This document shows, piece after piece, positions 2,752 through 63,333 of a stretch of DNA of 64,000 nt. Each line of letters opens with the position of its first letter. Position 1 is the first letter of the stretch. The stretch is from Liquidambar formosana (Eukaryota > Streptophyta > Magnoliopsida > Saxifragales > Altingiaceae): NCBI GenBank assembly GCA_039720395.1, contig CM077826.1, positions 22,755,053 to 22,819,052 on the forward strand, read 5' to 3'. The notes below the pieces were generated by a model that saw nothing but the letters and a program-made list of their open reading frames with translations, was not told the origin of the DNA and did no database searches. The translations under genes were made by a program, and so were the position numbers.

Positions 2752-2833
2752 CTCGGGTAACCGCCTAGCATGGGGCGGCAAGCCGCCTGGGCTTGGGCGG
2801 CAAGCCACCAGCAGCCAGGTGGTCAGCCGCCTC
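2752..2833. promoter_or_regulatory. 22-bp-unit palindromic array upstream of PMD gene (copy 1)
   Basis: GC-rich array opening with CTCGGGTAACCG and made of repeated GGCGGCAAGCC-type units. It lies 24 bp from the TTTTTAAA (2728-2721, minus strand) of the PMD gene. It belongs to a set of ten such arrays in the window. This copy and its duplicate at 14965 have the most degenerate right end. Confidence 0.7.
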
Positions 2834-2987
2834 GCCCACTCCGCATTGCCCGTTTAGCCTTTGCTCGCCTATTCGCGCTTTTGAACCTTCTTTGAGATGC
2901 AATCTCAGCATGTTTTGAGTTGAAAAATGAATGAATATCTTGACTTTGTTTGACATGAAATGGTTTGAAATAGATTGCGTTGGTAGC

Positions 2988-3777
2988 TGTGAACCCCGGA
3001 AATTGGGCCCACGAGGGATTGAAAAGAAAGTGGGTTTGAAAAAGAAAAAAGGAAAGGAGTCGCCACCTTATTTTTAAAGGAAACAAGGAAAACCCTAAAA
3101 ATCAGGTTGTTTAGGAAAACAATTTGAATGACTCCATAAAAAAAGGAAAGGCAAAAACCAATCTTTGAAAACCAAAGAAATCGGGATTCAGAGGTTAAGT
3201 TATGACATGGGGGTTCTAGGCAAAGCCTATAGGCACCCATGTCACCCTTTCGGTCTCTCAGTTCATTTGGGCTAAATTAAAGTCTTTCCATACAAAAATC
3301 AGCAAGTATATCATCACAAGAATTGCATGCATATCATATATTTCATTCATCCATCCATGCATAATAAGCAAATAAAACAAAAACGAAAATAAAAAGAAGA
3401 AAAGAAAACATAAATAAACCTAGGATGCTTGGATCCTAGAACGGACTTGAGCCTCACGAAGAGCGCCTACGTACCATGCAACGAAATACATGGTCAAAGT
3501 CCACGTAGTTCGATTAGAATTAGGGTTAGACCTAATATAAACCTATGGTTAAAACCCTAGGTTTCCTTATTTGATCAAAAGAGTTGAATATGATAGAAAG
3601 TTTGATTTTAGGAAAGAAATCCACAAAATGGAAACTTTAATAAAAACCAGAATTTTGTTGGTTAAGGAAACCTCTAATTAAACCATAGGATCATATTAAA
3701 TTAACCCTAAATAGGGAGAAGAGAATGAGTTAAGAAGAAAGGTGAATTGGGGCACACCTTCACACCACTTACCTGAG
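2988..3777 (-). mobile_element. Inverted Tat LTR fragment (duplicate of solo LTR at 15203)
   Basis: Begins TGTGAACCCC right after GTAGC (2983-2987) and reads as the reverse complement of a Tat LTR 3' end. It is the same insertion, with the same left target duplication, as the solo LTR at 15203-17988. It stops at the N gap. The shared junction shows that 1-3777 and 12190-15967 are copies of one locus made after the LTR inserted, or the same locus assembled twice. Confidence 0.85.
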
Positions 3778-3877
3778 NNNNNNNNNNNNNNNNNNNNNNN
3801 NNNNNNNNNNNNNNNNNNNNNNNNNNNNNNNNNNNNNNNNNNNNNNNNNNNNNNNNNNNNNNNNNNNNNNNNNNNNN
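3778..3877. other. Assembly gap, exactly 100 N
   Basis: A run of exactly 100 N, the usual placeholder for unknown gap size. Left is an inverted LTR; right is the middle of gag. The 5' LTR, PBS and gag start of element C are therefore unseen. Confidence 0.99.
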
Positions 3878-10247: not shown

Positions 10248-11534
10248 TCAAGTCCTTTTGATTTTCTTCAGAGTCTCTTGGTTTGCTTTCTTCTCTTTTC
10301 TTTCAAGTCTTCGTTTCTTTCGTAAGTTATGGGCATGTGCTGCTTCCACTACTTCTAGAATGTCTTCCTTGCAAAACCCAAGTCTTGTGTCCTTGATAAG
10401 GTCATAAATCCTTTCCCTGCGTAGGGTTTCTCTTTCACACAAGCTAGTCTTCAACCATGTCTTATATTTAGGGCTTATGACATAAGGCCAATCAGTGTTT
10501 TCAACTCGAGTCAGTTTTAGTTGGTCAGTCCATCTAGTTTTGGCCCACTTAATCATCGTGGGGCCCACAGGTTCAACAGAATGATCAAATACCACAGAAG
10601 TAGGTATGGTTTGCATGGCACCCATTTGACGAAGGATTCTTGAGGTCCAATAGAATGAAGTTGATCTCAACCCTATGAGCTTGACCATAGCACACCCAGA
10701 AGTTCGGAGAAGAATTTGTTCCTTGCATCCCCATATGAAGACAAACCACTTGATGTTTCGCTATGAGAGAGTTTGAAAGTAGCCTAACCATTCCCTCAAA
10801 GAAAATTGACCAGGATGTTCAACTCGACGGCAATAATAATGTTGGGGTTTGTATGGGTTAATGGTGGCAGGAGATAAGAAGTTAAGCCTTTCGAGAAGCC
10901 ACATCTGCAGCAGAATGGGGCTCCCTCCTAATGGGGCTTGTGGATTATCATGAGCTTTGTCTAAGCTATTCAGGGTTTCAGCTAGCACCATGGGAATCAG
11001 GTTGTTGTGTTCAAGAAGAAAAGGAATCAGTTCACAAATTTGAATAGGGACATAGAGAGTCCCCGTGGAGATAAGGAAGCAACCAATCAAACAGAAAGCC
11101 AGAGCGTGTTGTGTATTAAGGTTGAAATTCAGGGTACCTTTGCTATCATGAGCCAAAAAGGAAGTTGCTATTTCCATGAGATTCACCACGTGATCCTTCA
11201 CGAATATGGAGACCTCTTGTTGAGAAATCCCAAGGAAGTTGGAAAAGGAAATCAGGTAACTTGAGCGTGGAGTAGGGAGGATGAAAGGTCCTACAGGTGA
11301 AACTCCATACAGAGCACAAAATTCTTCCATTGTTGGGCATAGTTCTTCATAATTGAAACGGAATACATGAAGTTGGGGATCCCAAAAATATGTAGCAGCA
11401 GTAAGAAGAGTGGTTTCAAGCTTCTCATGCATCAAAGAGAATAATGGATCCAAGCAGTAGCGCTTGAACTCCTTCCTTGCCTCCGCACTCATAACCTTCA
11501 GAAAATCACTCAAGAGTTTGTCTAGGGCTTCCAT
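10248..11534 (-). pseudogene. Antisense DUF7745/PMD-superfamily gene, element C, one nonsense codon
   Basis: A 428-codon frame read from the ATG at 11534, opening MEALDKLLSDF. It is intact except for one TAG at 10763-10761, which replaces the Trp in the SWRNI stretch of A and B. After it the same frame continues to 10248, so no frameshift is needed. Motifs: WDPQLHVFRFNYEELCPTME near residues 52-71, a long helical middle, then VKLIGLRSTSFYWTSRILRQ near residue 285, and a basic C-terminus. The fold resembles DUF7745 plant proteins as I remember them. No intron is visible. A TATAAGA box lies at 11590 on the minus strand. Function unknown. Confidence 0.75.
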
Positions 11535-11677
11535 AACTTGCTCTCAATGAATGTAAGTAGGGTTTGAGACCCCTTGGATGTGCTCTTATAGGAAAAAATT
11601 TGGAAATCCGTGTTTTGGAAGGTGAAATTCCGTCAAAATAGGAAGTTTCCTAAAAACAGGCGAAACACTGCCTCGGG

Positions 11678-11756
11678 CTCGGGTGACCACCCAGGCCTGG
11701 GCGGCTAGCCGCCTGGGCCTAGGCGGCTAGCGCCCAGCCCCAGGTGGTCACCCGAG
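11678..11756. promoter_or_regulatory. 22-bp-unit palindromic array upstream of DUF7745 gene (element C)
   Basis: Ends are the perfect inverted repeat CTCGGGTGACCACC / GGTGGTCACCCGAG; the interior holds GGCTAGCCGCC-type units. It is 79 bp, one base short of the usual 80. Distance from the array to the TATA-like box (11590, minus strand) is 88 bp, as in elements A and B. Confidence 0.85.
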
Positions 11757-12005: not shown

Positions 12006-14669
12006 TCAATGATTTCCCATGGGCCTTCTCTTTCGACTTGGCCCAGCTCCATCATGACCTGAACGAGGTGCTCTAGAAGGGGGCATATCCTGTGCTGGAT
12101 GAGATGATGATGCCTGTTGCAAAGGAAGATAATGAGTTAGTAGGGGAATGGTGCCAATCCTAAGTGACAGTTGATAAAGATGATCACTTACTTGGGGATT
12201 CAAGCGTGCCTCCAGAACTGAGTTCTCTAAGCTCATTCGCACAAGATCCCTCCTTAATCCTTCATTGAGTTCAATGCATTCTTGGGCGTACTCCCGTGGG
12301 ACCTAGGAGAGTATGAACATGGTTAATAATAATGAAAGAATTGAATTCCTAAAAGGTAAGAGTTTAGAACTCACATTCTCATAATACGAATCGATCTTGT
12401 GATATTCATCGAATGGTGGATGGGTAATGTCAGTCTTCACAAATTTTGTCCCACTGCACAAGTTCACATACCAATTTAGTTGTGGGAGGAGTGGAGGTTG
12501 ATTTCCTTCAAGGTCATCATCCTCGTTATTGTAAGTCATCCCTGTAGCAGATCCAATTGTGGAGCTGTGTCCCCTTGCCCGTCGGCCCTGAAATTCAAAT
12601 GTTTGTCAAGAAACGTCTTTCTTATGATCTTAAAAAAGAGTTTAAGAGTTTGGGGAGCTCACCCCTTGAGGTGGGAGACCAGTGACCCTAGGATTCATCA
12701 GATATTGTCGACAGAAAGCAGTGTATTCTATGCGAGGGCAGGTGAATCCCTCAGCATCCCAACCCCTCAGAGCCTCTTCTAGTTCATCCCCCACTAGGTG
12801 GCTAGTATGCCTCATGTTCTTTGGTGGCATGGAAGGTGTCACAGCTGTATTCATATTTCCGTGGACTTATCTCAGGACTCGCTCCCCAAGATACCAGCTT
12901 CTACCTGTGGGGCTTTCAAAAAGGACCCTTTTGCTTGTCAACTCCAAACAAGAGGAGTACTTCTCGGGAAGCCTATGCTCCCACAGCCTCCATGGATCCC
13001 ATTCCACCTGTTGAGTTTGAAATAAGAAATGAGAAAAAAGATAAAAAAAGATAAAAAGAGAAAGAAAGATTCTACCATATCAACAGTCAAGCTGGCAAGA
13101 TATGCCCTTGCATGGGCATAATCATGTCGATTGGAGGCTTTTATAGCCAAGCAAGATGGAGCGTAATTTTGGAGGATGGGCCATGACATGGCATCACTAG
13201 CAAGAGTTGGATGGCACATGTTCAGGTACTCATAGTACATATCTGTGGAAAATCAATCAAAGAAATAGAAGAAATCATGTATGTGTTAAGTTTCGGGAAA
13301 TAATAGAGAATTGAATGTTCTTTGTTACCTCCCAAACGAAAGGAAGTCCCCCAAAGTTCTTTGCAACTCCTCGGGACATGTCAGTCATGGAGTGATACAT
13401 GGTTGCAAAAGCAGCCCCACCCCAGTTGTATCTCTCAATTTTGTTCACATCTTCCATGCTAGCTAGCAACTCTAGTCGAGCCATGTCATTAGTGCCCGCA
13501 AAGAAGGTACATGAAATCATGTAGAGCAAGAAAGCTTTCACAATGTATTGGGGATCTGTCCCCTCACTCTCTTCCACAATGGCAAAGGTGTTGAGAGCCA
13601 AGTACGGCGTACGCCTTTTGGGCTTAGCTCCGCTTCCACCCTGAGTAGGGCTACTATGTAGTTCTGATCCATGTTGGCTTGTTCGTAGTACTCCAAGCGC
13701 TTGCCTTTCAAGCTCAACCCAGTTATCATGGTGAAGTCCTTAGGGGTCATGGTCATCTCCCCGAAGCTAAAATGGAAAGTGTTGGTGGTGTCCCACCATA
13801 GCTTTGTCAAGGCAAACAATGCTTGTCTATCCCATTGCTCGTTCCATAGAGCATCTAGGAAGGGCCCAAAACCCGCCTTCTTTACTATCTTGCGAGCACG
13901 TGGTTGGGCATGTTCCATATGTCTCTACCATGAGATGAGCCCCTTTATTAATGTCCTTGTACGGAGACCTTGGAAGTCGGGCTATGTCAAAGGATTGTGT
14001 ATTGAGTTAGCATTGAAAACATAGAGATATTGGGCATACATTGGTAATTGATTTCAAATGGTTTTCCAAAAGTTTTAAAATATGGGTTTTTGATTCATGA
14101 AATGAATTAGAAATAAATGCCCATGACTTTGTGTATTCAAATTCATTGATTTTGTAAGGATTGAACATGGTTTTGCCTTTCGGGCATTTTATCGAACACT
14201 TGGTGTGTAACTTATTTTCAAGCATTGAAATGAAAGATTTTGTATACCAAATCCTTGCCAATACCATTTGACTTTGTGCTACAATGCAAACCAATTGATT
14301 TTTCAAGAATTGACATGTTTTTGTCTCTTTGGCATTTTATCAAACACTTGGTGGGCATCTTTTCTCAAGCATTGCGAAACAAGCTTTGTACACATTCAAT
14401 CCTTGCCAAATCAATGAAATTGGCTTAACAATGATAGAAACAATAAAAAGAAGATCATGGGAATGCATTTTATCCAATAGAAATCAAGATTTCATGATAA
14501 ACACGTTAATTTGGGAAGAACTAACCTCATGTTGGGAATGGAGGTATAAGAGATGCTTCTTGGGTTCAAGCAACACCTTGTCTTGGGATTCATCATAGAT
14601 TGGTGCCTTGTATGTATTCTTGATCACATAGTATGGATACTTGATGTTGGAATCATTGCTAGAAGCCAT
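12006..14669 (-). pseudogene. Antisense multi-exon PMD gene, element C, disrupted
   Basis: Exon 1 14669-14526 (48 codons, donor GTTAGT). Exon 2 13981-13329 holds the PMD core: WWDTTNTFHFSFGEMTMTPK, then AFLLYMISCTFFAGT and MSRGVAKNFGGLPFVWE. Later exons are homologous to exons 3-7 of the element B gene; the last ends with TGA at 12008-12006. Lesions: a TAG early in exon 2 (near 13927, TGG in the copy at 1727), exon 2 one base short of the B homologue, and a one-base difference at the start of exon 3. The tail is rich in Pro, Arg and Ser. PMD proteins are known as plant nuclear proteins and as passengers in transposons; here the gene is carried by the retrotransposon in antisense with its introns. 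Confidence 0.75.
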
Positions 14670-14964
14670 TGATGATGGTTGAGCTTGTATATGAGAAAAA
14701 TGGGTTTGATAAGAAGATGATGAACTTAATCTTGCAACTTGATGATTGATGCTTGTTTTGTTGTTGAATGACTTGTTCTTGATGCTATTTCATACAAACA
14801 ACTTGAATTGAAAGTGAAACTTTGAATGAGAATGTGTGTGTGAGTGTTTGGAGAAGATGGAATGGGTTTCTAGAGAGAGAAACTCTCTATTTTCGGGTTT
14901 GGAGAAGTGTGAGCATGAAATGGGGGTCAAGGGTTTAAAAACCCAGATTTTAGAGGACCCTAGC

Positions 14965-15045
14965 CTCGGGTAACCGCCTAGCATGGGGCGGCAAGCCGCC
15001 TGGGCTTGGGCGGCAAGCCACCAGCAGCCAGGTGGTCAGCCGCCT
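14965..15045. promoter_or_regulatory. 22-bp-unit palindromic array upstream of PMD gene (element C)
   Basis: Starts CTCGGGTAACCG and repeats GGCGGCAAGCC-type units; the right end is degenerate (GGTGGTCAGCCG). It lies 24 bp upstream of TTTTTAAA (14941, minus strand), the same distance as in copy 1 and in element B. Confidence 0.75.
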
Positions 15046-15202: not shown

Positions 15203-17988
15203 TGTGAACCCCGGAAATTGGGCCCACGAGGGATTGAAAAGAAAGTGGGTTTGAAAAAGAAAAAGGAAAGGAGTCGCCACCTTATTTTTTAAAGGAAACA
15301 AGGAAAACCCTAAAAATCAGGTTGTTTTAGGAAAACAATTTGAATGACTCCATAAAAAAAGGAAAGGCAAAAACCAATCTTTTGAAAACCAAAGAAATCG
15401 GGGATTCAGAGGTTAAGTTATGACATGGGAAGGTTCTAGGCAAAGCCTATAGGCACCCATGTCACCCTTTCGGTCTCTCAGTTCATTTGGGCTAAATTAA
15501 AGTCTTTCCATACAAAAATCAGCAAGTATATCATCACAAGAATTGCATGCATATCATATATTTCATTCATCCATCCATGCATAATAAGCAAATAAAAACA
15601 GAAAATAAAAAGAAGAAAAGAAAACATAAATAAACCTAGGATGCTTGGATCCTAGAACGGACTTGAGCCTCACGAAGAGCGCCTACGTACCATGCAACGA
15701 AATACATGGATCAAAGTCCACGTAGTTCGATTAGAATTAGGGTTAAGACCTAATATAAACCTATGGTTAAAACCCTAGGTTTCCTTATTTGATCAAAAGA
15801 GTTGAATATGATAGAAAGTTTGATTTTAGGAAAGAAATCCACAAAATGGAAACTTTAATAAAAACCAGAATTTTGTTGGTTAAGGAAACCTCTAATTAAA
15901 CCATAGGATCATATTAAAAATTAACCCTAAATAGGGAGAAGAGAATGAGTTAAGAAGAAAGGTGAATTGGGGCACCTTCACACCCACTTACCTGAGCGCA
16001 ATTAGCTCCAAGCATTTAGCCATTTCAGACATAAGCAGCCCTATTTGCCATGGGACAAATACCACACCTATTTGCACCCTTACAAGTGCTCAAAACCATG
16101 CAAAAACACTAACATGCAAATCTGGACAGAATAGTATTATGACCTAAAATCATCCACTAAGCATGCCAATAGCAAAAACAGCGAACAATAATAAGTCCTA
16201 ACATATTCCTAGAACCATATCATGCATAAAAACCCTAAAACATACTAACATGCATGCAAAACTATCATGTTTACTCCATATGAAAAACATATACAGCAAA
16301 CACGAAGAAAAACCAAATAAAAAAGTCTACTTTATCATGCTATATGAAAACAAACACGAAACAATGACTCTAAAACCCTAAACTCACAAATATGCTTAAA
16401 AACATACAAAACATACTTTAATCATGCTAAAACCAAACTAAACAGAAATTAAATCATGCATATTAACTAACTAAAGCAATATAACATGATGAAAATCCTA
16501 ACTCTAACATGCAATGACACTAATCCTAGCACAAGGACAAACAGGAGCACAAGAATCACAACTATGCATTAAAAACCTAAAGGACAGCTCTAAAGCATGC
16601 TAATCAGTAGATAAAAAATAGATATTCCATGTATATTAACTAGCTAGAGTGTTAATACATGATAAAAAAGTTATCTTTAACATGCAATAGGCCTAACCCA
16701 TATGAAAACCTAGTTTAAGCTTGAATAGAGAAGGAGAATACCTTAGGAAGGGCCTTCCCTTGTGTTTGTAATTGTTCGTGGCTCCTCAGGTCTTTAGAGT
16801 GAATCAAACCAACATGAATCCTCCTCTTTGTCAAAGTGGTATCACAGCAAAGAGATCAAAACTCACTCAACTTTGAAAAGAAATAGAAAACAAAAAGAGA
16901 ACAAGAGAAAAGAAAAAGTGATTCTCGTCACTTTGCAGCAGCAGCAACTTCAATCGCATTTTTGGGTATGAAAACGTTGGATTTGGACAAAGCTTGTGAA
17001 ATACAAAGTTGTAGAGAATTGAATTATCTTTCTAACAAGACCAATTTCATCAAATTCTGACTTCGGATGAAAAAGTTATGATTAAAATACGACTGCTAGT
17101 TTTCAGAAAATCTGCTGCTGAATTATGATGAATTTCACTCCCTCCAAACCCTCTTCTCCTCTCCCTTGTTTAAAGACATTAAGAGAGTATTTATAGCTGA
17201 AATCTAGAGTTTCCCTTTCCTTCCTGGACTAGGTTTCCTTGGAGAATAATCAAAAGGTATTTTATAATGATAAAAGACTTCTAATCTGAATAGGAAAAGG
17301 AAATTGTCTTTTATAAAAATTGGGAGACTGACCGCTAACACGCATGCACATGTATCGTATGTGCGTACACACACTCATCACATACGTACACGTGTTAGTG
17401 TCATGATAAAAATGGCTAATTTAATAAAATAATTTTCTTTTCATTTTAACCAAAAATCTCATGCTGTGATTCGCACTAATTCTTCAAGGATAATCCGTAA
17501 ATAACCACACTAAACTCATCATCAGGCCATATCAAAATTGAACTTCATGAAACACTTTTGAGGGTAAAATGATGACTAATGAAAGTCAATTTGAAAAGAT
17601 TTGGTTGGTAATTGTGAGTCAATTAGAGCTAACCCAAGGAAGGGTCAATTAACCAACTTGAACCACATCGAGCCATTTTAATCCCGAGCCATTGACTTAC
17701 CAAATTGACACTAAAAATACCTCTTATGCATCCATATGAACTCCAATTGACAATTTGGAGATCATTCCAAGGTCAAATGAAAAGTTTGGGACTTAAAAGA
17801 CGATTATGCCCCTCAAGTCACAAAAGCTCTTATTATCCCTCAAGATCAACTCCAATTTGAACCAAAATTCATATCCATTGTCCTTGTGACTCTAGAAAAC
17901 TAATGCAAGTGACTAGACTCAAAAACAAAACAAAAACATGCATGAAATGATGAGCCCTAGTAAGGTGGTGCAAAAATGGGGTGTGACA
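15203..17988 (-). mobile_element. Inverted solo LTR of a diverged Tat family nested in element C
   Basis: Runs TGTGAACC to GGGTGTGACA, so the LTR proper is TG...CA in the minus orientation, 2786 bp. It is flanked by the 5-bp direct repeat GTAGC (15198-15202 and 17989-17993), which marks a true insertion. Removing it joins element C 3' sequence. No PBS or internal sequence is present, so it is a solo LTR made by LTR-LTR recombination. The TATA box reads TATAAATA on minus (17195-17188). The U5 hairpin and the conserved GAACTACGTGGACTTTG block are present. The sequence between is AT-rich with no gene. Confidence 0.93.
17335..17398. promoter_or_regulatory. Palindrome in U3 of the solo LTR, unrelated sequence to the other arrays
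   Basis: Imperfect inverted repeat with 8-bp perfect ends CTAACACG / CGTGTTAG and alternating purine-pyrimidine inner arms (CGTATGTGCGTAC). It lies 140 bp upstream of the TATA box in LTR orientation, roughly where other families carry the 22-bp-unit array. Confidence 0.6.
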
Positions 17989-18700: not shown

Positions 18701-18706
18701 AGTTTT

Positions 18707-20039: not shown

Positions 20040-20097
20040 CTCGGGTGACCACCCAGGCCTGGGCGGTTAGCCGCCCAGCCCCAGGTGGTCACCCGAG
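20040..20097. promoter_or_regulatory. 22-bp-unit palindromic array, short form, in C 3' LTR
   Basis: 58 bp: the perfect 14-bp inverted ends CTCGGGTGACCACC / GGTGGTCACCCGAG around two units. It is exactly one 22-bp unit shorter than the 80-bp form in the A LTR. Distance to TATAAATA (20285) is 188 bp. Confidence 0.88.
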
Positions 20098-20284: not shown

Positions 20285-20292
20285 TATAAATA
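20285..20292 (+). promoter_or_regulatory. LTR TATA box (C 3' LTR)
   Basis: TATAAATA in CCCTATAAATACCCC; the same position holds TATAAATA at 52062 (A) and TATATAAA at 26686 (B). Confidence 0.7.
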
Positions 20293-23079: not shown

Positions 23080-25712
23080 TGTGAACCCACGAAAAAGCGC
23101 GGAGCCCACAAGGGTTTGGCAAAATGATAATAGGTATGAAAGACAACAAACAAAAAGGGAGTCGCCACCTCATTTTTTAGGGAAAAGAGGAAAACCACAA
23201 AAATGTTTTATTTTCAAAACCACATGACTCCATTAAAGGAAAAGCAAAGTCTTTGAAACCAGAAAATTGGATCCGGGGGCTAAGTTACGACGTGGGAGGT
23301 TTTGGGCTAAGCCCATAGGCACCCACATCGCCCGAGTTGGTCTCTTAATTTAATTGGGCTAACTTAATATCTTTTTCACTCAAATATCATCATATATCAT
23401 CACAAGGCAGTATGTATATCATATATTTCATCCAATCATCTCATGCACAATCACCCAAATAAAACAAAACAGAAAAAAGAAGAAAAGAAAAGAAAAGCCT
23501 AGGATACTTGGATCCTAGAACGGACTTGAGCCTCACGAAGAGCGCCTACGTACCATGCAGCGAAATACATGGATCAAAGTCCACGTAGTTTGAAAAGAAT
23601 AGGGCTACAACCTAATACAAACCTATGGTAAAAACCGTAGGTTTCCTTATTTGAAAATACATTGATTTAATCCAAAACTGAAAACTTCCACAAGAGGAAA
23701 ACTTTGATAAAAACCAGAATTAATTATTGAAGGAAACCTTTGATAATTACCATAAGCTTGTATTAAGAAGTAACCCTAGGAGGGAGAAGAGAAAAGAAAG
23801 AAAAAGAAAGGTGAATTGGGACACCTTCAAACCCTACTTACCTGAGCGCACAAGCTCCAAACATTAGCCATTTCAGACCATAGCAGCCCTATTTGCAATA
23901 GGACAAGCATTGTACCTGTTTGCACCCTTACAAGTGCACGCAACCATGCAAAGAAAGCAATATGCAAATCTGGACAGAACCATGACAAGGCCTAAAATCA
24001 TCCATTAATCATGCAAACAACAAGAATAATGAATAACTAAGGACTCTAACTTAACCCTACATGCAATGACTCGACTAACATGCATAAAAACCTACCAAAG
24101 ACACACTAACAAGCATAAGAGACTCTAATAATATCAATAAACATGATAACAAAGCACATTCCAACCAAAAGGATGATATTTTATGTAAAATATGAAAATA
24201 GGCCTCCCTACGGCGAGCTTTCTTAAGCGAAACTATCCTAGGATAATTTCACGTAAGAAAGTCGTTATGGGGAGGTGCAATCAGCATATCCTATGTAAAA
24301 TATATACCCTAGAACACAACAGAAAAGATTTCATGCTTAAACACATCACAGAAGACTCTCATGCAAAACCTTACTCAACGAAAAGGATAATTATCCTTAG
24401 AAAATGATAATGTCTCCAAAAACCCTATAAAATATACTATATGAATGCAAACCTAGCATGATTCAACTATATGCAGCATATATAGAATGACTATGATGAG
24501 CAACAGCTCAAAAAGCTAAGCTAAGCATGCTGTATAAGACCTATGCAATTTCAGGGTTATCGAAACCCTAATCTCACAACTATGCATTAAAACCTATGAA
24601 ACAACTCTAAGACATGCTCAAATTATCATGAATATCATTCATATAGCATATATTGACTAACAGGAACATCCACACATGATAATAATCACAGCAACTTAAA
24701 CATGTGAACTATGCATGATTTAAGAAGATAGAACGAATAAGGCTATCAAATCCTTGGTAAACCAGGGATTATCAAGCATATAAAGCCATGAACTATCCTA
24801 AAATCATTCATATAACATCATGTAAACATTGAATTCAATCCATAAGAAGAGCAATTGCATGCACCACAACTATCCTAGAAGGAGAAGAAGAAAGAGAAGA
24901 AGGAGAAGCAGAAATTCATGCTCAGCATTAAAGGGATAGGCTTACCTCTTGTAAACTCTTCCTTGTCTTCAAACCTCTTGTTTCCTTGCTTGCTTGGGGT
25001 TGAAGAGCCTCCTCTTGAAGTCCTTCTAGCTCTCCAAACTCGTAGCTCCCTCTCTCTCTTAGTGTAAAGTGCAATTTCTCCCCCTATGTGCTGAATGTCA
25101 TGTCCTTTATATAGAGAACTGACCCCCTAAACCAATGGCTAAGATTAATTCATTAAATAATGATCCTAGGGCTATTAGAGACTCTCTTGGTGCTCAAACA
25201 ACTCAAACCTACACACTCCTAGGCTCAGACAAGTTGTTTTGGCGGAGGAAACCGTCAAAAGAGGGAAGATAGAGTCAGAGTTTGACTTAAAGAAGGATTC
25301 CTCGGGTGACCAACTAGGCCTGGACGGTTAGCCGTCTGGGCTTGGACGGCTGACCGTCCAGCCCCGGACGGTTACCCGAGGGTCCTCTATTTCCGCTTCG
25401 GTTTTGACTTCTACTTGCTTCAGAAGTCCTAAAATCTTTAAATTAAGTCCGATTTTGACGAAATAAAAGCCAAAACGACCGTGTTTCGAAGGGGAACACA
25501 TTTTTAGGCATCTTAGGACAAAAATCCTCAACCATGGGTGCATGGTTAGGTTTTACAAAGGTGGTTAACCATGGTGCTTCACCGTCGCTAAGCTGGGTTT
25601 GTACACAAGGTCGAACCGAATGCTTTCCCAATCGAAAATTGATCTTTCTAAACATGTTTAGGACATAAATAAAGCCCAATTGAAGTTAAATGAGAGAAAA
25701 TTGATTGGGTCT
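23080..25712 (-). mobile_element. Element D: inverted Tat LTR of the B family, cut by insertion of B
   Basis: Reverse complement of the B-family LTR. It starts TGTGAACCCAC, equal to the LTR 3' end, and runs 2633 bp until it stops abruptly where B begins. About 374 bp of its 5' end are missing here and should lie beyond the far end of B. The expected target duplication of B in D is GGTCT (25708-25712). The bases left of 23080 are not a PBS, so this is a 3' LTR or a solo LTR. TATATAAA is at 25113-25106 on minus, 188 bp from its array (25301-25380). Confidence 0.9.
25301..25380. promoter_or_regulatory. 22-bp-unit palindromic array, B-type, in LTR D
   Basis: 80 bp between CTCGGGTGACCA and CGGTTACCCGAG, with GGACGG...CCGTCC units. 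Distance to its TATA-like box on the minus strand is 188 bp. Confidence 0.85.
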
Positions 25713-39120: not shown

Positions 39121-39150
39121 TGAGATACATTGTGGATTGGCTTTAGTGCA

Positions 39151-46134: not shown

Positions 46135-47433
46135 TTAAGTCCTCTTGAGTTTCTTCAGAATCATTTTGTTTGTCTTCTGTCTTTCTCTATCAAGTCTTCT
46201 TTTCTTTCGCAAGTCATGGCCGTGGGATGCCTCCACTGCTTCAAGAATGTCTTCTCTGTAAAGTCCAAGTCTCGTGTCCTTGATAAGGTCATAAATTCTT
46301 TCTCGGCGAGAAGTTTCCCTTTCGCCCAAATCATCCTTCAACCATTGCTTATATTCTCCACTCATCTCGAAAGGTCCTTCAGTGTTGGCAATGCGAGTCA
46401 ATTTCAGGTCTGTAGGCCAGCGAGTCCTCGCCCACTTGATTATAGTAGGACCGACAGGTTCCACAGAGCAACAAAGTCCTGTTAAGGACGGTATGGTTTG
46501 CATGGCGCCCATCTGGCGAAGAATTCTTGAAGTCCAATAGAAGGAAGTCGATCTCAGTCCTATGAGTTTGACAAAAGCACACCCCGAGGTTCGGAAAAGT
46601 ACCTGCTCTTTACACCCCCATGTGAAGACGTACCATTTGATGTTCCGCCACGACAGTGTGTGGAAGTAACCCAACCAATCTCGTAAAGAGAATGGCCCAG
46701 GGAGTTCAACTTGGCGTAGACAGAAGCGCTGGGGCTTGTATGGATTGATAGTGGTGGGAGATAGAAAGTTCAAGCGCTCGAGTAGCCACATTTGCAGTAA
46801 AAAGGGGCTACCTTCTAAAAGCGCTTTGGGGTTGCCGTGAACCTTATCTAAACCATTCAAGGTTTCAGCTAATACCAAGGGAATGATGTTATGTCGCTTG
46901 AAAAGAGGGGCAACCAACTCACATATTTGAACAGGGGCTTGGAGAGTGCCGGTGGAGATGAGAAAGCGACCAATTAAACAGAAAGCGAGTGCACGCTGAA
47001 TTTGAGGGGTGAAAGTCAGAGTACCTTCGCTATCATGAGCCAAGAATGAGGTTGCTAACTTCATTAAGTCCACCATATGGTCCTTGACAAAGATCGTTGC
47101 GTCCCTTTGAGGAATGCCAAGAAAATCCGAGAAGGAAGCAAGGTAATCCGAGCGAGGTGTAGGAAGAATGAATGGCCCTGCGGGCAAAACTCCAAATAAA
47201 GCACAGAATTCCTCCATGGTTGGGCATAATTCTTCATAATTAAATCGAAAGACATGGATTTGAGGATCCCAGAAGTATGTAGCAGCAGTGAGAAGAGTCA
47301 TCTCGAGCTTCATGTGCCTTATGGAGAGCAATGGTTCCAAGCCGAAGCGCCTAAACTCAGTCTTGTCTTTGGCAGCCATGACTACCAAAAACCCTCTTAA
47401 GAACCCATCCAAGGCTTCCATAATTATTGTCAA
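46135..47433 (-). CDS. Antisense DUF7745/PMD-superfamily protein, intact
   Basis: Open frame of 432 codons from the ATG at 47433. The ATG at 47421 (MEALDGFLRGF) aligns with the starts in A and C and is the more likely start, giving 428 residues. Motifs: TAATYFWDPQIHVFRFNYEE, PTMEEFCALFGVLPAGPF, ALAFCLIGRFLISTGTL, PLVLAETLNGLDKVHG, LQMWLLERLNFLSP and VKLIGLRSTSFYWTSRILRQ, ending in a Lys/Arg-rich tail that could be a nuclear signal. The order resembles DUF7745 plant proteins (a PMD relative), from memory. No signal peptide or membrane segment is evident. TATAAAAA lies at 47476 on minus and the palindromic array 88 bp further up. It is convergent with pol. It is the only antisense gene in the window without a lesion. 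Function unknown; it may regulate the element. Confidence 0.85.
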   Translation of the reverse strand: MTIIMEALDGFLRGFLVVMAAKDKTEFRRFGLEPLLSIRHMKLEMTLLTAATYFWDPQIHVFRFNYEELCPTMEEFCALFGVLPAGPFILPTPRSDYLASFSDFLGIPQRDATIFVKDHMVDLMKLATSFLAHDSEGTLTFTPQIQRALAFCLIGRFLISTGTLQAPVQICELVAPLFKRHNIIPLVLAETLNGLDKVHGNPKALLEGSPFLLQMWLLERLNFLSPTTINPYKPQRFCLRQVELPGPFSLRDWLGYFHTLSWRNIKWYVFTWGCKEQVLFRTSGCAFVKLIGLRSTSFYWTSRILRQMGAMQTIPSLTGLCCSVEPVGPTIIKWARTRWPTDLKLTRIANTEGPFEMSGEYKQWLKDDLGERETSRRERIYDLIKDTRLGLYREDILEAVEASHGHDLRKKRRLDRERQKTNKMILKKLKRT

Positions 47434-47468: not shown

Positions 47469-47476
47469 TTTTTATA
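47469..47476 (-). promoter_or_regulatory. TATA-like box of the antisense DUF7745 gene (element B)
   Basis: TATAAAAA on minus, about 45-55 bp upstream of the start codon. Equivalents are at 11590 (C) and 63188 (A), each 88 bp from the palindromic array. Confidence 0.65.
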
Positions 47477-47563
47477 GGAAAAGAGTCACAAATTCGAGTC
47501 CTAAAGGGAGTAGAACCGTCAAAATCGCAAAATTCCTAAAAAATCGTGAAAAAGCGCGTCGAC

Positions 47564-47643
47564 CTCGGGTAACCGTCCAGGGCTGGACGGTCAGCCGTCT
47601 AGGCCCAGACGGCTAACCGTCCGGGGCCAGATGGTCACCCGAG
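47564..47643. promoter_or_regulatory. 22-bp-unit palindromic array upstream of DUF7745 gene (element B)
   Basis: 80 bp, CTCGGGTAACCG to GGTCACCCGAG with GGACGGTCAGCCGTC units, nearly the same as the array in the B LTR (26419). 88 bp to the TATA-like box. Confidence 0.88.
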
Positions 47644-47923: not shown

Positions 47924-50583
47924 TCAGCGGTTCCCAGAGCTTCTTTTGCGGCTCGGCCCGGCTCCGTCACGACCCCCACGAGGTGCTCTAGGAGGGCGCA
48001 TTGCTGGTGGTGGCTGCATATACAGAATCCATTGCAAAGAAGTCAAGTATGAGAATAGGGTTGGTTGAAAACCACAAATAGGAACTTTAAAATGGGTTGA
48101 ACACTTACCATGACATCCAAACGAGCTTCTGCCATAGATTTGGCTAGGCTCATCCTCACAAGGTCACGTCGCAAGCCCTCACTAAGGTCAATAAACTCTT
48201 GGGCATATGCCGTAGGCACCTAGGATAATCAATAAGGGTAAAATTGAAGGTAATGTTCAAAGAAAGAAAGAAATACCCATAAAGAGAACTCACCTGTTCT
48301 CGATTTGGGTCGATCCTGGGGGATTCATCAAATGCAGGATGAGTGATGGCGGTCTTGACAAAGTCTGACCCACTGCACAAATCAATGAACCAATTCGGCT
48401 GAGGCAAGGGTAGTGACCTATCCCCCTCCATCTCATCTTCCTCAGAGCTAGGAACCACTCCTGAGCCCACTATTGAGCTATGCCCTCGTGCTCGTCGACC
48501 CTGTAAGTGTTCACCTATTAAATAGAGTCTCTACCAAAAGAAAAGGCTAGGAGAATGTTAAAGACTTACCCCCTGAGGATGAAGGCCTGTCACCCTGGGC
48601 CTCATCAAATATTGGAGACAGAAAGTGTCATATGCAATGTCAGGAGAAGTGAACTCCTCCGCATCCCAGCCTCTCAAGGCATCCCACAACTCCTCCCCCT
48701 CCATTAAGTTAACATGCCTCATGTTAAGTGGTGGAGGCATTGGAGCCATGGCGGCATTCACATCACCCATGACTTGGCGTAAGACACGCTCCCCTAGGTA
48801 CCAGTACCTACCCACGGGGCCTTCCAAGAGCACCCTCTTGCCCGTCAACATCAAGCTAGGAATGCATCGCTTGGGTAGCATTGGTACCCATATCTTCCAT
48901 GGATTCCATTCAATCTATTCAAAAAATCCAAAATGAGAAATTGGGAGTAAAAGGAAAAGGAAAAGAATGGGGAAAGAATTTCACCATATCAGCAGTGAGG
49001 CTTGCTAGGTGAGCTCTAGCAAAGGCGTAATCATGACGATTCGCCACCCGAATGGATACATAACTAGGAGAGTAATTCTTGAGGGTAGGCCATTCAATGG
49101 TTTCCTCAGCAAGGGATGGGCGACATAGGTTGAGGTACTCATAGCACCAAACCTGTCAAGAGTTGAGGAAAGAGTCAAAAAGAAAAGATAATATAAGACA
49201 AAAAAGAAATAAAAGGGAAGTAGCATTACCTCCCAAACAAAGGGCATCCCACCGAAGTCCTTGGTCACACCACGTGACATGTCACACATTGTGCGATACA
49301 TGGTGGCTAGAGCAGCCCCTCCCCAGTTGAATTTCCTAATCTTGTCAACATCTTCCATGCTTGCAAGAAGACCCAAAGGGGCTAGGTCGCCCGTCCCGGC
49401 AAAGAATGTGCATGAGATCATGTACAAAAGAAATGCCCTTGTTATGCAATCGGGGCTTGCACCTTCGCTCTCCCTTTGTTTGGCAAACTTGTTGAAAAGC
49501 CAAGTGCGTCGCACTGCTTTCTTGATTACCTCAACTTCCATCCCAAGGTAAGCTAGGAGATAATCCTCATCCGTGTGAGCCTCCTCATAGAATTCCAAGC
49601 TTTTGCCTTTAATGCTTAAGCCCGTGATCATGGTGAAGTCCTTGGGGGTTAGTGTCATCTCCCCGAAACCAAAATGGAATGTATTGGTGGTGTCCCACCA
49701 TAACTCAGACAAGGCTAGCAAAGCTTGCCTATCACATTGGTCATTTCACAAAGAATCTAGGAATGGACCAAAACCGGCCTTTTCGACATAGCCCTTGGTA
49801 ATGGGTTGGAAGTTTTCCATGTTCCGCCACCATTCAATGAGTCCTTTGACAGAGGACCGAGTGCGCATGTCCTGAAAGTTGGGCTATAGCCATTGAAAAT
49901 ACCTTGAGGGTTAGTTGAAAGAACATGGAAATAATAAGCTTACACTAGCAATTGGTTTCAAATTGTTTTCCAAAAGATGTCAAAAGGTTGTTTTTATTCA
50001 TGAAATGAATTGCTAATGGATGTCTATAAGTTTACTTGTTCATATGCCTTAATTTGGCAAGGATTGAACACTTTTTTATCACTTGGGCATTTTATCGAAC
50101 ACTTGGTGGGTGACACCTCCCAAGCCTTGAAACAAAAGAATTTTGTATGATCAATCCTTGCTAAATCATAGCATATTACTCACTTGAGGGTTTACTTGTT
50201 GATATACATTGATTTGGTAAAGATTGAACATCTTTATTTCACTTGGGAATTTTATCGAACACTTGGCGGGTGCCATTTTTCAAGCTTTCAAATGAAAAGA
50301 ATTTGTGTGTTCAATCCTTGCCAAATCAAGGGATATCACTCAACAACCCAAGGGGTATTCAAAAGAAGTAGAAGGGAATGCAATTTCATCAAAAGAATCG
50401 AAAGATTCAAAAGAAAAGTGTTAAGTTGGGTAAACTTACTTCTTGTTGGGAATGGATGAATGAGAGATGCTTGTCGGGTTCAAGCAACACCCTAGCTTGT
50501 GGAGCATCATAGAGTGGTGCCTTGTATGTGCTTTTGACCCCATAGAATGGATACTTGGTGCTTGAGTCCTTGCTTGATGACAT
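47924..50583 (-). pseudogene. Antisense seven-exon plant mobile domain gene (element B), one nonsense codon
   Basis: Seven exons with GT-AG borders, all phase 0: 50583-50440, 49883-49230, 49152-48985, 48914-48570, 48500-48294, 48219-48109, 48013-47924. They total 1719 nt (572 codons and a stop). Donors include GTAAGT (three times) and GTGAGT. Exon 2 has the PMD core: LWWDTTNTFHFGFGEMTLTP, FTMITGLSIKGKSLEFYEE, AFLLYMISCTFFAGT and MSRGVTKDFGGMPFVWE. Exon 4 has ALRGWDAEEF and PRVTGLHPQG. The tail is Pro/Arg-rich. One TGA near 49752-49750 replaces a Trp codon of the C copy; otherwise the frame is open. PMD proteins are known in plant nuclei and in transposons. Carried antisense, its introns are not removed from the retrotransposon RNA. 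The exons are my prediction. Confidence 0.8.
50031..50340 (-). repeat. Tandem duplication in PMD intron 1 (about 160 bp, two copies)
   Basis: Two diverged copies starting TTTACTTGTT at 50031 and 50191, each with a GAATTTTATCGAACACTTGG-like core. Element C intron 1 has the same duplication (near 14121 and 14267), so it predates the split of the families. Confidence 0.65.
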
Positions 50584-50869
50584 TCTTGATGATGGAGTTG
50601 GGTTTGTGAAAAATGGGTTTGATTTGGTTTGATTTCACAAGATGATGTGAATTGGTTGTTTTGATTGCTAAATGGGCTTGATTTGTTGTTGTTTGATGTG
50701 CATTTGATGTTTGGATTGAATGTTTTTTGAAATAGGAATGAGAGAATGAGAGTTGGAGAAGATAGGATGTGAGTTTAGAGAGAGAAACTCTCTAATTTTC
50801 GAATGGGAGAATGTGAGGATGAGTGTGCAAGACATGGGTTTAAAAACCCAGAAATTTTTCAATGGTGGG

Positions 50870-50949
50870 CTCGGGTAACCATCCCACCCTGGACGGTCAA
50901 CCGTCTTGCCCTGGACGGTTGACCATCTGAGGGCAGATGGTCACCCTAG
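50870..50949. promoter_or_regulatory. 22-bp-unit palindromic array upstream of PMD gene (element B)
   Basis: 80 bp, CTCGGGTAACCA to TGGTCACCCTAG with GGACGGTCAACCGTC units. 24 bp to TTTTTAAA (50846, minus), the same as in copies 1 and C. Confidence 0.85.
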
Positions 50950-51794: not shown

Positions 51795-51874
51795 CTCGGG
51801 TGACCACCCAGGCCTGGGCGGCTAGCCGCCTGGGCCCAGGCTGCTAGCCGCCCAGCCCCAGGTGGTCACCCGAG
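51795..51874. promoter_or_regulatory. 22-bp-unit palindromic array, long form, in A 5' LTR
   Basis: 80 bp: CTCG, three 22-bp units with GCTAGCCGCC cores, and GTCACCCGAG; the outer 14 bp are perfect inverted repeats. 188 bp to TATAAATA at 52062. Confidence 0.9.
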
Positions 51875-52061: not shown

Positions 52062-52069
52062 TATAAATA
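52062..52069 (+). promoter_or_regulatory. LTR TATA box (element A)
   Basis: TATAAATA in CCCTATAAATACCCC, the likely core promoter for the genomic RNA of element A. Confidence 0.7.
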
Positions 52070-57966: not shown

Positions 57967-58141
57967 GTTCTTTAGTTAGAGTCTTTCTTGCTTTCAATAA
58001 AGTGTGTCCGCCTATCCCACTTTGTGGAGTTAGGAGTCGTTTCATAGTTGTGGCACCAAGTTTTGTTTCCTTTTCAAGTTTGTGTCTTTTTGTTTGTTCC
58101 TTTAATGAAGTGTGTTTCTTTTATACATTGTTTGCTTGCAG
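57963..58141 (+). other. Putative intron between gag-pro and pol (element A)
   Basis: 179 bp, donor CTT|GTAGGT, acceptor TTTGCTTGCAG after a T-rich tract. Removing it deletes the gag-pro stop and leaves the pol frame in phase. Both sites are conserved in B and C. Known parallel: the spliced pro-RT intron of Ogre elements. Confidence 0.6.
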
Positions 58142-58160
58142 TGTTTCCTTTCTCTCTTCT

Positions 58161-61100: not shown

Positions 61101-61520
61101 TATTCCTTGGTGTATGGGATGGAGGCTGTTTTGCCTATTGAGTTGGAGGTACCGTCATTACGGGTTGCTATGGAGAGTCAGATAGCAGAAGCAGATTGGA
61201 TTAAGAACCGTTATGATGAGCTGGCATTGCTCGATGAAAGGCGATTGAGGGCCTTGTATCATGTGCAGGGATATCAGCGAAGGGTTGCAAGAGCATTCAA
61301 CAAGCATGTCAAAGACCGAGGTTTGAAGACAGGGGATTTGGTGTTGAAAGAAATCAGAGCTCCAATTTTTGATCCACGAGGGAAGTTCAAGCCAAGTTGG
61401 GGTGGCCCGTATGTTATCAAGGAGATACTACCAGCAGGGGCTGTTCGCCTCATGGATTTGGATGGAATTGAGTTCGCTCGTCCTACCAATTTGGATCAAT
61501 TGAAGAAGTACTATGTGTAA
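58161..61520 (+). CDS. Element A pol polyprotein: RT, RNase H, archaeal-type RNase H, integrase (intact)
   Basis: 1119 codons from the ATG at 58161 (MDIYGMDIDP, conserved in B and C); the frame is open from 58002. RT: PEWALKVKEEVTKQL, VPKKDGKVRMCVDFRDLNAA, FMDGFSGYNQI, YVDDM (about residue 252). First RNase H (about 390-510) reads YLTVTETTTGAML, so the leading catalytic Asp is missing. The second, archaeal-type RNase H (about 550-675) keeps four acids: FDGA, AEYEA, GDSAL and FADALA. Integrase has a His/Cys zinc region (EIHEG, HMNGY, CHKCQ) and D841, D902, E937 in GIDIIG, SDNG and GAVEA. The C-terminal GPY motif (GGPYVIKEIL) is present and no chromodomain follows. It copies genomic RNA into DNA and integrates it. 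Confidence 0.95.
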   Translation: MDIYGMDIDPRNDVPPELVERRKRGVTEPNMDELEPINLGTNELPKIIKIGITLSPLEKEKLIALLKANITAFAWSYEDMPGIDPDIVQHFIPTNPLKKPVKQKLRRLKPEWALKVKEEVTKQLDAGFLQVVEYPEWLSNIVPVPKKDGKVRMCVDFRDLNAASPKDDFPLPHIDVLVDSTVGHALLSFMDGFSGYNQIKMAPQDMEKTAFITQWGTYCYKVMPFGLRNAGATYQRAATTLLHDMIHKEVEVYVDDMIVKSVDREGHFRALERFLERAKKYNLRLNPQKCAFGVTAGKLLGFMITQRGIEVDPGKIKAIVEMEPPSTEKQIRGFLGRIQYISRFIANLTMVCEPIFKLLKKGVPKVWNEECQGAFETIKRYLSNPPILVPPRQGEPLLLYLTVTETTTGAMLAQYLEGSKKENAIYYLSKKMTDYEVKYNAIEKACVALVWATQKLCHYMMSYEVFLISRMDPLKYLIERPVLSYRTARWSILLNEFDIKYVTQKSVKGSVIADYLASCPVASSEQFNDQFPDEDVLEIGRKSWKVYFDGAANKRGYGIGVLLVSPEEAFTPLAVKLGFEATNNIAEYEACILALEAALELGIKESEVFGDSALIICQIKGEWKTRDEKLLPYHAYLEALTKEFVEIEFNYLSRNKNQFADALATLASMVEIPDGGNVKPLVIECREKPVYCCSIREGEVKDGHPWYYDIMKFIEEREYPEGATRIDRRTLRRLASHYVLCGGKLYRRSYDGVHLLCVTEEEAERLVSEIHEGVGAPHMNGYMLAKKIMRLGYYWSTMERDCHAHVKKCHKCQVFANGQHLPSMPLTSMSSPWPFAVWGIDIIGQIKPKASNGHEYILVAIDYFTKWVEAASFKTLNAKKVAQFIQLNIIYRYGVPHEVISDNGQHFQKETKELLQKYNIVHHLSSPYRPQTNGAVEATNKNVKKILQKTADTYTDWHEKLPLALWGYRTSVRSSTGATPYSLVYGMEAVLPIELEVPSLRVAMESQIAEADWIKNRYDELALLDERRLRALYHVQGYQRRVARAFNKHVKDRGLKTGDLVLKEIRAPIFDPRGKFKPSWGGPYVIKEILPAGAVRLMDLDGIEFARPTNLDQLKKYYV

Positions 61521-61665: not shown

Positions 61666-61845
61666 GGGGATACGTAGGCAGCCCATAAAGTTACCTTGGG
61701 TGCGGTCCAAACAACACCACAACAACAAATCTCAAAATTAAATTATTATTGGCAATTCATTTAGAACTAATTGATTGACATAGCAATTTATTGGTGTTAG
61801 ATAAAGAACTATTGACATGCCATAGATATCCTATTTCTAAAGTCT

Positions 61846-63132
61846 TCAAGTCCTTTTGATTTTCTTCAGAATTTCTTGGTTTGCTTTTTTCTCTTTTCTT
61901 TCAAGTCTTCGCTTCTTTCGCAAGTCATGAGCATGTGCTGCTTCCACTGCTTCCAGAATGTCTTCCCTGCAAAATCCAAGTCCTGTGTCCTTGATAAGGT
62001 CATAAATCCTTTTCCTGCGAATGGTTTCTCTTTCACCCAAGCTAGTCTTCAACCATGTCTTGTATTCAGGGCTCATGACATAAGGCCCATCGGTGTTTTC
62101 AACTCGAGTCAGTTTCAGTTGGTCAGTCCATCTAGTCTTGGCCCACTTAACCATTGTGGGGCCCACAGGTTCGACAGAATGATCAAATACCACAGGAGTA
62201 GGTATGGTTTGCATGGCACCCATCTGACGAAGGATTCTTGAAGTCCAATAGAATGAAGTTGACCTCAACCCTATGAGCTTGACTATAGCACACCCAGAAG
62301 TTCGGAGAAGAATTTGTTCCTTGCATCCCCATGTGGAGACAAACCACCTGATGTTTCGCCATGAGAGAGTTTGGAAGTAGCCCAACCATTCCCTCAAAGA
62401 AAATTGACCAGGAAGTTCAACTCGACGGCAACAATAATGTTGGGGTTTGTATGGATTAATGGTGGTAGGAGATAAGAAATTAAGCCTTTCAAGAAGCCAC
62501 ATCTGCAGTAGAATGGGGCTCCCTCCTAATGGGGCTTGTGGGTTATCATGAACTTTGTCTAAACCGTTGAGGGTTTCAGCTAGCACCATGGGAATCAGGT
62601 TGTTGTGTTCAAGAAGAAAAGGGATCAGTTCACAAATTTGAATAGGGACATAGAGAGTCCCCGTGGAGATAAGGAAGCGACCAACCAAGCAGAAAGCAAG
62701 AGCATGTTGAGTAGGAAGGTTGAAATTCAAGGTACCTTTGCTGTCATGGGCCAAGAAGGAAGTTGCTATTTCCATAAGGTTCACCATGTGATCCTTCACA
62801 AATATGGAGGCCTCTTGTTAAGAAATCCCAAGGAAGTTGGAGAAGGAAATCAGGTAACTTGAGCGAGGAGTAGGGAGGATGAAAGGTCCCACAGGTGAAA
62901 CTCCATACAAGGCGCAGAATTCCTCCATTGTTGGGCATAGTTCTTCATAGTTGAAGCGGAATACATGAAGTTGGGGATCCCAAAAATGTGTAGCAGCAGT
63001 AAGAAGAGTGGTTTCAAGCTTCACATGTATCAAAGAAAACAATGGATCCAAGCAGTAGCGCTTGAACTCCTTCCTTGCCTCCGCACTCATAACCTTCAGA
63101 AAATCACTCAAGAGCTTGTCTAGGGCTTCCAT
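61846..63132 (-). pseudogene. Antisense DUF7745/PMD-superfamily gene, element A, one nonsense codon
   Basis: 428-codon frame from the ATG at 63132 (MEALDKLLSDFLK), same length as in C and, from its second ATG, in B. One TAA at 62820-62818 stands where C has CAA (Gln) in GISQQE; beyond it the same frame is open to 61846. Same motif order as the B protein, with basic KKRRLERKEKK sequence near the C-terminus. TATAAAAG at 63188 on minus, array 88 bp further up. The single stop differs from the one in C, so the two lesions are independent. Confidence 0.8.
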
Positions 63133-63275
63133 AACTTTCTCTCAATGAATGCTAGTAGGGTTTGAGACCCCTTGGATGTGCTTTTATAGGAAAAAATTCG
63201 GAAATCCGTGTTTTGGAAGGTGGAATCCCGTCAAAATAGGAAGTTTCCTAAAATCAGGCGAAACACCGCTTCGGG

Positions 63276-63333
63276 CTCGGGTGACCACCCAGGCCTGGTC
63301 GGCTAGCCGCCCAGCCCCAGGTGGTCACCCGAG
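63276..63333. promoter_or_regulatory. 22-bp-unit palindromic array, short form, upstream of DUF7745 gene (element A)
   Basis: 58 bp, CTCGGGTGACCACC to GGTGGTCACCCGAG around two units. 88 bp to the TATA-like box at 63188 (minus). Confidence 0.88.

Follow-up and report, generated by a model that had tools for sequence, protein, structure and literature searches.

Palindromic arrays upstream of sense and antisense promoters in Tat-type retrotransposons of Liquidambar formosana: a candidate element-encoded operator

The question raised by a stretch of 64,000 nucleotides from Liquidambar formosana (assembly GCA_039720395.1, contig CM077826.1, positions 22,755,053 to 22,819,052 of the forward strand; here called the window, with its first letter as position 1) is why the same GC-rich palindromic array stands upstream of three different promoters of the retrotransposons that it contains. 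Self-comparison and terminal motifs over the full 64 kb identify the window as a plant-type stretch of nested Ty3/gypsy elements, with long terminal repeats (LTRs; L1 to L5) of two array-bearing families, family 1 and family 2, and of a third family. Apart from the sense promoter in the LTR, promoters are found at two minus-strand genes between pol and the 3' end, a DUF7745 gene and a PMD gene. In our view the arrays are best explained, with a probability of roughly one half, by a family-specific, element-encoded operator circuit that would extend over all three promoters.

The initial annotation of this DNA had listed ten GC-rich arrays with the shared ends CTCGGGT and ACCCGAG, and all ten are present at their coordinates with a GC content of 0.71 (flanks 0.42). 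Family-1 LTRs carry them on the plus strand at 20040..20097 (L2, three dyads) and 51795..51874 (L5, four dyads), family-2 LTRs at 26419..26498 (L4, plus strand, four dyads) and 25301..25380 (L3, an inverted copy on the minus strand, four dyads). The antisense DUF7745 promoters have minus-strand arrays at 11678..11756 (family 1 copy a, 79 bp, with the third dyad one base short), 63276..63333 (family 1 copy b, three dyads) and 47564..47643 (family 2, four dyads), and those of the antisense PMD promoters, also on the minus strand, are located at 2752..2831 (family 1 copy a, a duplicate of the array at 14965), 14965..15044 (family 1 copy b) and 50870..50949 (family 2). The plus-strand heptamer CTCGGGT occurs ten times in the window, each time as the left end of an array. 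The right end is less uniform than annotated: it reads ACCCGAG in only seven of the ten, GCCGCC at 2752 and 14965 and ACCCTAG at 50870, and two further copies of ACCCGAG stand alone without an array (1443 and 58487).

Each array consists of three to four dyads CGG-N4-CCG with a centre-to-centre distance of 22 bp, and the array length tracks the dyad number (58 bp for three, 79-80 bp for four). Eighteen of the 20 copies of CGG-N4-CCG in the window belong to arrays, at a first-order Markov expectation of 1.5 and a maximum of 4 in 60 runs, and the same is true for all eight pairs spaced by 22 bp. A dyad profile made from 38 units finds 38 matches in the window, 37 of them in arrays; a general dyad-tandem score did not separate the arrays from simulated sequence (best scores 16-19 in both), unlike the stricter palindrome scan described below. 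The ungapped self-complementarity over the whole array ranges from 0.60 to 0.90. The ten arrays are not independent, because those at 2752 and 14965 are part of a 98% duplication and those at 25301 and 26419 of 98% inverted arms. We rejected the idea that a small mobile palindrome had inserted at three places: none of the ten arrays is bordered by a direct duplication of 3-10 bp, and every one of them lies upstream of a TATA-like box.

These boxes belong, as had been annotated, to an LTR, a DUF7745 gene or a PMD gene in every case, and the annotated distances of 188, 88 and 24, counted to the first base of the box, correspond exactly to 187, 87 and 23 intervening bases. The gap is 187 bases in all four LTRs, with TATA boxes at 20285..20292 (L2), 52062..52069 (L5) and 26686..26693 (L4) on the plus strand and at 25106..25113 (L3) on the minus strand. 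It amounts to 87 bases in all three DUF7745 promoters, whose minus-strand boxes are found at 11583..11590 (family 1 copy a, the TATA-like TATAAGAG belonging to array 11678), 63181..63188 (family 1 copy b) and 47469..47476 (family 2), and here the start codon follows 142-143 bases past the array. The three PMD promoters all have a gap of 23 bases to the box TTTTTAAACC, which is TATA-like only (2719..2728 and 14932..14941 in family 1 copies a and b, 50837..50846 in family 2, all on the minus strand). Both families keep the class distances although they are deeply diverged, with synonymous differences of 0.62-0.74 per site, i.e. near saturation, and ratios of nonsynonymous to synonymous change (dN/dS) between them of 0.02 for pol and 0.07 for gag. 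The further statement that the array marks all three promoters of each Tat element applies to one element (family 2, 25713 to about 51088, interrupted by an insertion) and to family 1 as a composite; it fails for the third LTR family, represented by L1, which is without an array.

The array sequence itself has diverged by family. Within a family the LTR and DUF7745 arrays share an identity of 0.97-0.98 (family 1) or 0.91 (family 2), and across families the four-dyad arrays at the same position share 0.76 (LTR) or 0.78 (DUF7745), values to be read from the floor of 0.62-0.69 that aligned shuffled arrays give. The 100-bp flanks of LTR and DUF7745 arrays are 0.60-0.73 identical within a family, which exceeds the shuffled baselines of 0.60-0.64 by at most about 0.10; hence, most of the likeness ends at the array borders. 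The PMD arrays reach 0.76-0.82 with arrays of their own family and 0.66 with each other across families. The half-site consensus is close to RG[G/A]YGG, with an exact fit in 27 of 32 half-sites of family 1 and 22 of 24 of family 2, a count that omits the outermost half-sites of the arrays and includes a single gap sign in the 79-bp array. Across all three promoter classes the third half-site base is G in 31/32 cases in family 1 (one T) and A in 22/24 cases in family 2, the two T being found in two LTR copies with identical arrays; taking one four-dyad array per class and family, the count is G in 18/18 vs A in 17/18. Simple CpG decay was rejected as the origin of the family difference, since the CpG base is not the one that switched. 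This in-step switch of the same half-site base at three promoters goes beyond the initial annotation and adds to its suggestion of a shared regulator. Co-adaptation with a diverging factor would leave such a pattern, and so would strong conversion.

Also new is the motif TTTTGACGG. Counting both strands, the window has five copies, where 0.46 would be expected and 100 simulations gave at most 3, and each copy lies 39-40 bp downstream of an array when read in the direction of the promoter. The distance is 40 bp in L4 (26539..26547, plus strand) and L3 (25252..25260, minus strand) and 39 bp in the DUF7745 promoters of family 1 copy a (11630..11638), family 1 copy b (63228..63236) and family 2 (47516..47524), all on the minus strand. 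The motif is therefore shared by the family-2 LTRs and the DUF7745 promoters of both families, and it is absent downstream of the arrays in family-1 LTRs and PMD promoters. The match between LTR and DUF7745 flanks around it is the top of 96 between-class flank comparisons (z 4.4). Another motif, TTTTGACG, occurs nine times in the window, in all cases within about 85 bp of an array (1.75 expected, maximum 5); these are not nine independent cases, because several are homologous copies.

The alignment of the third LTR, L1, with L5 breaks into five pieces of 68-90% identity, the two longest with 81% and 78%, and does not extend across the promoter region. In place of the CTCGGGT array it carries an unrelated 64-bp palindrome with the ends CTAACACG and CGTGTTAG (17335..17398, minus strand), likewise new compared with the initial annotation, which stands 139 bases before TATAAATA, the TATA box of L1 (from 17195 down). 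This palindrome was first noticed by eye and the scan of the whole window came after. With strict settings (56-90 bp, perfect 7-bp ends, symmetry of at least 65%) the 64 kb contain seven palindromes, namely six CTCGGGT arrays and that of L1, while the remaining four CTCGGGT arrays (11678, 2752, 14965 and 50870) escaped these settings; lowering the symmetry cut-off to 55% added three AT-rich palindromes (17535, 34519 and 34910). Simulated windows held 0.05 strict palindromes on average and at most 2 in 60, none of 1500 local 300-bp shuffles had one, and among 20000 shuffles of the 64-mer six reached the symmetry, none of these with perfect ends. The L1 palindrome was seen as a single copy, and its TATA distance is unlike the 187 bases of the other LTRs.

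Which protein might act on the arrays? The antisense PMD/DUF7745 proteins are the sole candidate factors seen in the window. The DUF7745 gene of family 2 (46135..47421, minus strand) is an intact open reading frame (ORF) of 428 amino acids with a strongly basic C-terminus, and it matches both PMD (PF10536) and DUF7745 (PF24924) in Pfam. Both family-1 copies in the window, again on the minus strand, have one in-frame stop (10251..11534 in copy a; 61846..63132 in copy b, with the ATG at 63132 and the stop before an open stretch from 62787). Between the families the DUF7745 protein has a dN/dS of 0.12 (313 codons) and 0.07 (257 codons), the latter value equal to that of gag, hence the gene looks kept as a protein under purifying selection. 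The minus-strand PMD gene of family 2 (48159..49883) is split into several open pieces with a strong PMD match only in 49008-49745, and its remains in family 1 (12306..13924, minus strand) match PMD in 13541-13924 and, just below the cut-off, in 13278-13739. The paralogy of the two antisense proteins is based on their common match to Pfam PMD; profile comparison did not detect it (hhalign probability 0.1, shallow alignments). A sequence search of the PDB with the DUF7745 protein returned none at E up to 1, and DUF7745 was mentioned in no paper found in a literature search.

Taken together, the arrays probably represent a shared promoter operator. Each array would be an operator cluster of three to four two-fold-symmetric sites, about two helical turns apart and upstream of the core promoter, which would be filled by a dimeric sequence-specific DNA-binding factor that controls the sense (gag-pol) and both antisense transcripts jointly. 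Such a factor would be family-specific, and it would most likely be one of the two antisense PMD/DUF7745 proteins; we regard the chance that it is encoded by the element as about even. If so, the three promoters would form one self-regulated circuit, because the element would provide its own factor, and both the change in step at three separate places and the unrelated palindrome in the sister LTR would be expected. The likeliest sign of regulation would be positive, with the factor protecting the promoters from silencing, in the way that VANC proteins protect VANDAL elements. A given VANC protein binds short motifs that are repeated in tandem in its own VANDAL family, and it causes a loss of DNA methylation (PMC5735166, PMC10398659; these and the following papers are considered here in excerpts). 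By this analogy the arrays and their factor might serve anti-silencing, a role that we propose with reservation. Equally tentative is the complete scenario of a self-encoded regulon, in which an antisense PMD/DUF7745 protein on phased palindromic operators would keep the three promoters unsilenced, while operator and protein specificity would change together, to the point that a sister LTR family would have exchanged its entire operator.

The resemblance to VANC and VANDAL, which belongs to the Mutator-like elements, includes family-specific tandem motifs in noncoding regions that diverge together and vary in unit number (PMC5735166, PMC10398659). Such family-specific divergence is found here as well, clearly for the LTR and DUF7745 arrays and for the PMD arrays mainly in the half-site base, and the candidate factor is likewise element-encoded. 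However, VANDAL is a DNA transposon and the element described here an LTR retrotransposon. The VANC motifs have 8-9 bp (YAGTATTAY; AGTTGTCC/AC for VANC6), those of VANC21 with one orientation and a high density (PMC5735166). Moreover, binding by VANC has been shown experimentally, whereas our arrays are known from sequence and the match to the VANC domain DUF1985 is below the cut-off.

Several observations weigh against the element-encoded circuit. VANC motifs are direct, dense and not palindromic, whereas the present arrays are phased palindromes. A known DNA-binding domain or fold was not found in the antisense proteins with Pfam, the two PMD pieces that match DUF1985 do so below the gathering score (E 0.0013 and 0.03), and an AlphaFold structure prediction was discarded for its low confidence (predicted local distance difference test of 36.5). 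The family signal is blurred in places, as the three-dyad arrays of family 1 are 0.81-0.86 identical to the family-2 LTR and DUF7745 arrays, and the family-2 PMD array shows 0.76-0.79 to arrays of its own family vs 0.70-0.78 to the LTR and DUF7745 arrays of family 1. It is nearly as close to the latter, so the grouping of PMD arrays by overall identity is weak. Conversion alone could yield the in-step divergence, the spacers being alike as well. Pairing across the whole array (0.77 of cells; 7/38 pairs compensated) is higher than within single dyads (0.66; 3/22), which fits a hairpin too. Finally, the effective sample is two families times three promoter positions, with two array-bearing families in one window.

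The fixed spacing was likewise rejected as strong stand-alone evidence, although the distances are exact. Between L4 and L5 the entire stretch from LTR start to TATA box (706 bp, the array and 187 bp) has the same length, and beyond the box the offset shifts repeatedly; the spacing of the LTR array is thus not special to the array. Inside the 187 bp two 60-bp blocks fall to an identity of 0.43-0.52 between families with unchanged length. Whether this interval is free of indels depends on the aligner, because MAFFT shows none and a looser global alignment shows 11-12 mutually cancelling gap runs. As a control, intervals of 187 bp keep their net length at 33% of LTR positions vs 2% and 0% in two other noncoding alignments; for 87 bp these values are 45, 35 and 22% and for 23 bp 75, 75 and 69% across three noncoding alignments. 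Spacing alone is thus moderate evidence.

Among the alternatives, the one that survives best, albeit as an unlikely one, is an enhancer for a host transcription factor that binds the arrays and is used independently by the three promoters, the element encoding no regulator of them. Family-1 dyads contain AGCCGCC, which we take to resemble the GCC box of ERF factors. The half-site CCGTCC equals the 'CCGTCC-box', which has five PlantCARE matches in the long LTR of rice Retrosat2, and TTTTGACG contains TGACG, also a named plant motif in the same work (PMC3485330). However, one and the same base separates the families in almost all half-sites of this single window, where a single host factor should favour one motif, and the third LTR has an unrelated palindrome instead.

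Less probable still is a role of the palindrome as nucleic-acid structure, i.e. an RNA hairpin in the genomic RNA or a DNA cruciform acting, for example, in strand transfer, packaging or transcript termination between convergent units. Apart from the pairing data given above, sense-strand folding with z between -7.4 and -11.1 in five of six arrays tested speaks for it, the family-1 PMD array reaching -2.4. However, the mismatches have no excess of G-T, tolerable in sense RNA, over A-C (11 vs 21), the family-1 PMD arrays have lost much of their global symmetry (0.60-0.61) with their dyads kept, and an RNA role does not explain why all ten arrays stand upstream of TATA-like boxes on two strands. 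Weakest of all is a purely mechanical homogenisation, in which the arrays would be hot spots of gene conversion or template switching within the element that need no regulator: it would suit the drop of likeness to near baseline within 100 bp outside the arrays, the similarity of LTR and DUF7745 arrays within a family, spacers included, and array lengths differing by one 22-bp unit, but it leaves unexplained both the fixed placement upstream of three promoters and the conservation of dyads and spacing despite near-saturated synonymous sites.

Some features of the element-encoded circuit have counterparts in known retroelements. In Grande, RIRE2 and Retand of the Retand/Tat group, too, the region between pol and the 3' LTR holds antisense ORFs as well as tandem arrays, and gene23 of Grande possesses its own antisense promoter (PMC11963269, PMC7264820). 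The function of these antisense genes is called unknown in a survey from 2025 (PMC11963269) and a review from 2020 (PMC7264820). TRP28 antisense proteins characterise all but two (97%) of the Retand clusters, in contrast to PMD/DUF7745 in our element, and the excerpts of the same survey hold no palindromic module common to LTR and antisense promoters (PMC11963269). Gypsy elements across angiosperms encode the PMD proteins PMD-A1 and PMD-A2, and the host PMD proteins MAIN and MAIL1 act in silencing and gene expression; a target motif for PMD-A was not found in the excerpts (PMC5418596, PMC7156037, PMC9899485). The DOWN motif linked to MAIN and MAIL1 reads CATGCAGTTT in MORC1 (PMC9899485) and has no exact match on either strand of the window. 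In human T-cell leukaemia virus 1 (HTLV-1), U3 response elements serve the element-encoded regulator Tax, and the antisense nuclear protein HBZ acts on the sense promoter; unlike here, where the same module is found at sense and antisense promoters, its antisense transcription is Tax-independent and TATA-less (PMC10186651). Two sunflower papers (PMC12844716, PMC11728184) refer to anti-silencing by VANC or VANDAL and to additional ORFs of LTR elements, their excerpts do not contain 'palindrom', and the former leaves open whether additional-ORF or anti-silencing proteins shape methylation. Judged by titles and abstract openings, no paper on a palindromic module shared by sense and antisense promoters of one retrotransposon was found. 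A viral contig collection gave no match to the array pattern and none that was confirmed for the DUF7745 protein or pol; the scan of a genome contig collection with the array pattern hit at least 118 stretches, and among the 80 listed 79 came from Pseudomonas and one from Bacteroidales, which were taken as unrelated.

The arrays provide a concrete target sequence with a built-in specificity control, the third half-site base being G in family 1 vs A in family 2. Should a PMD/DUF7745 protein bind them, LTR retrotransposons would join DNA transposons as elements with sequence-specific self-regulation or anti-silencing, which would also bear on how host PMD proteins such as MAIN and MAIL1 came into silencing. 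If the regulon is true, antisense PMD genes, so far unexplained in plant Gypsy elements, would gain a function and a target.

Regarding the classification of the elements, the region 57960-61517 has the Pfam domain order RVT_1, RT_RNaseH, RVT_3, H2C2 and rve, i.e. a second RNase H between RT-RNase H and integrase as in Tat and Retand elements, and a dual RNase H is a Tat feature (PMC9289625). Since Pfam recognises gag, pol with the second RNase H and integrase, a Tat-type element is supported, and the antisense ORFs between pol and the 3' LTR (46135-47421 intact, the others broken) agree with Tat/Retand. Two sets of 9 and 8 protein pieces yielded matches to PMD/DUF7745 but none to antisense TRP28 (PF04195); because TRP28 is absent from these pieces, we do not file the element as a typical Retand, but as Tat in the wider sense.

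The LTRs begin with TGTCACACCCC wherever the start is present and end with TTCACA or TCCACA. L1 (15203-17988) is on the minus strand, and family 1 comprises L2 (19332-22570, plus) and L5 (51089-54218, plus), with bodies from 3879 to about 15180 and at 54.9-64 kb. L3 (23080-25712, minus) and L4 (25713-28726, plus) are family-2 LTRs that form a head-to-head pair (23080-28726) with 95% overall identity, in which L3, lacking its first approximately 370 bp, abuts the start of L4. L4 and L5 are followed by TTGGCGACTCCACTGGGGA at 28729 and 54222, respectively, a primer-binding-site-like sequence that presumably corresponds to tRNA-Arg. The first approximately 700 bp of the LTR (19332-20040, 25713-26419 and 51089-51795) are unusually conserved and length-rigid across families, yet noncoding; between L4 and L5 the first 707 bases are 70.6% identical without a gap, and L1 retains the first approximately 450 bp. 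Coding was rejected as the cause of this rigidity, as there is no long ORF and three-base periodicity is absent.

The family-2 element that begins with L4 has its body at 29.4-31.3 and 40.9-51.1 kb, split by an insertion (31346-40851) in which 1.7-kb direct repeats (31346-33038 and 39161-40851, 99.3% identical) surround about 6.1 kb. It is probably a young LTR-type element, and the sole ORF scanned from it (38529-38975) has no Pfam match. At 50950-51089 the family-2 body passes straight into the family-1 LTR at the LTR start motif, which looks as if LTR recombination had fused two elements. The segments 1-3777 and 12190-15996 are 98% duplicates that include the junction where the family-1 PMD region meets an LTR of another family in inverted orientation. 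The first copy is directly followed by an assembly gap of 100 N (3778-3877), hence this duplication might be a mis-assembly. Finally, an array of an 80-bp tandem repeat (18626-19105) is situated between L1 and L2.

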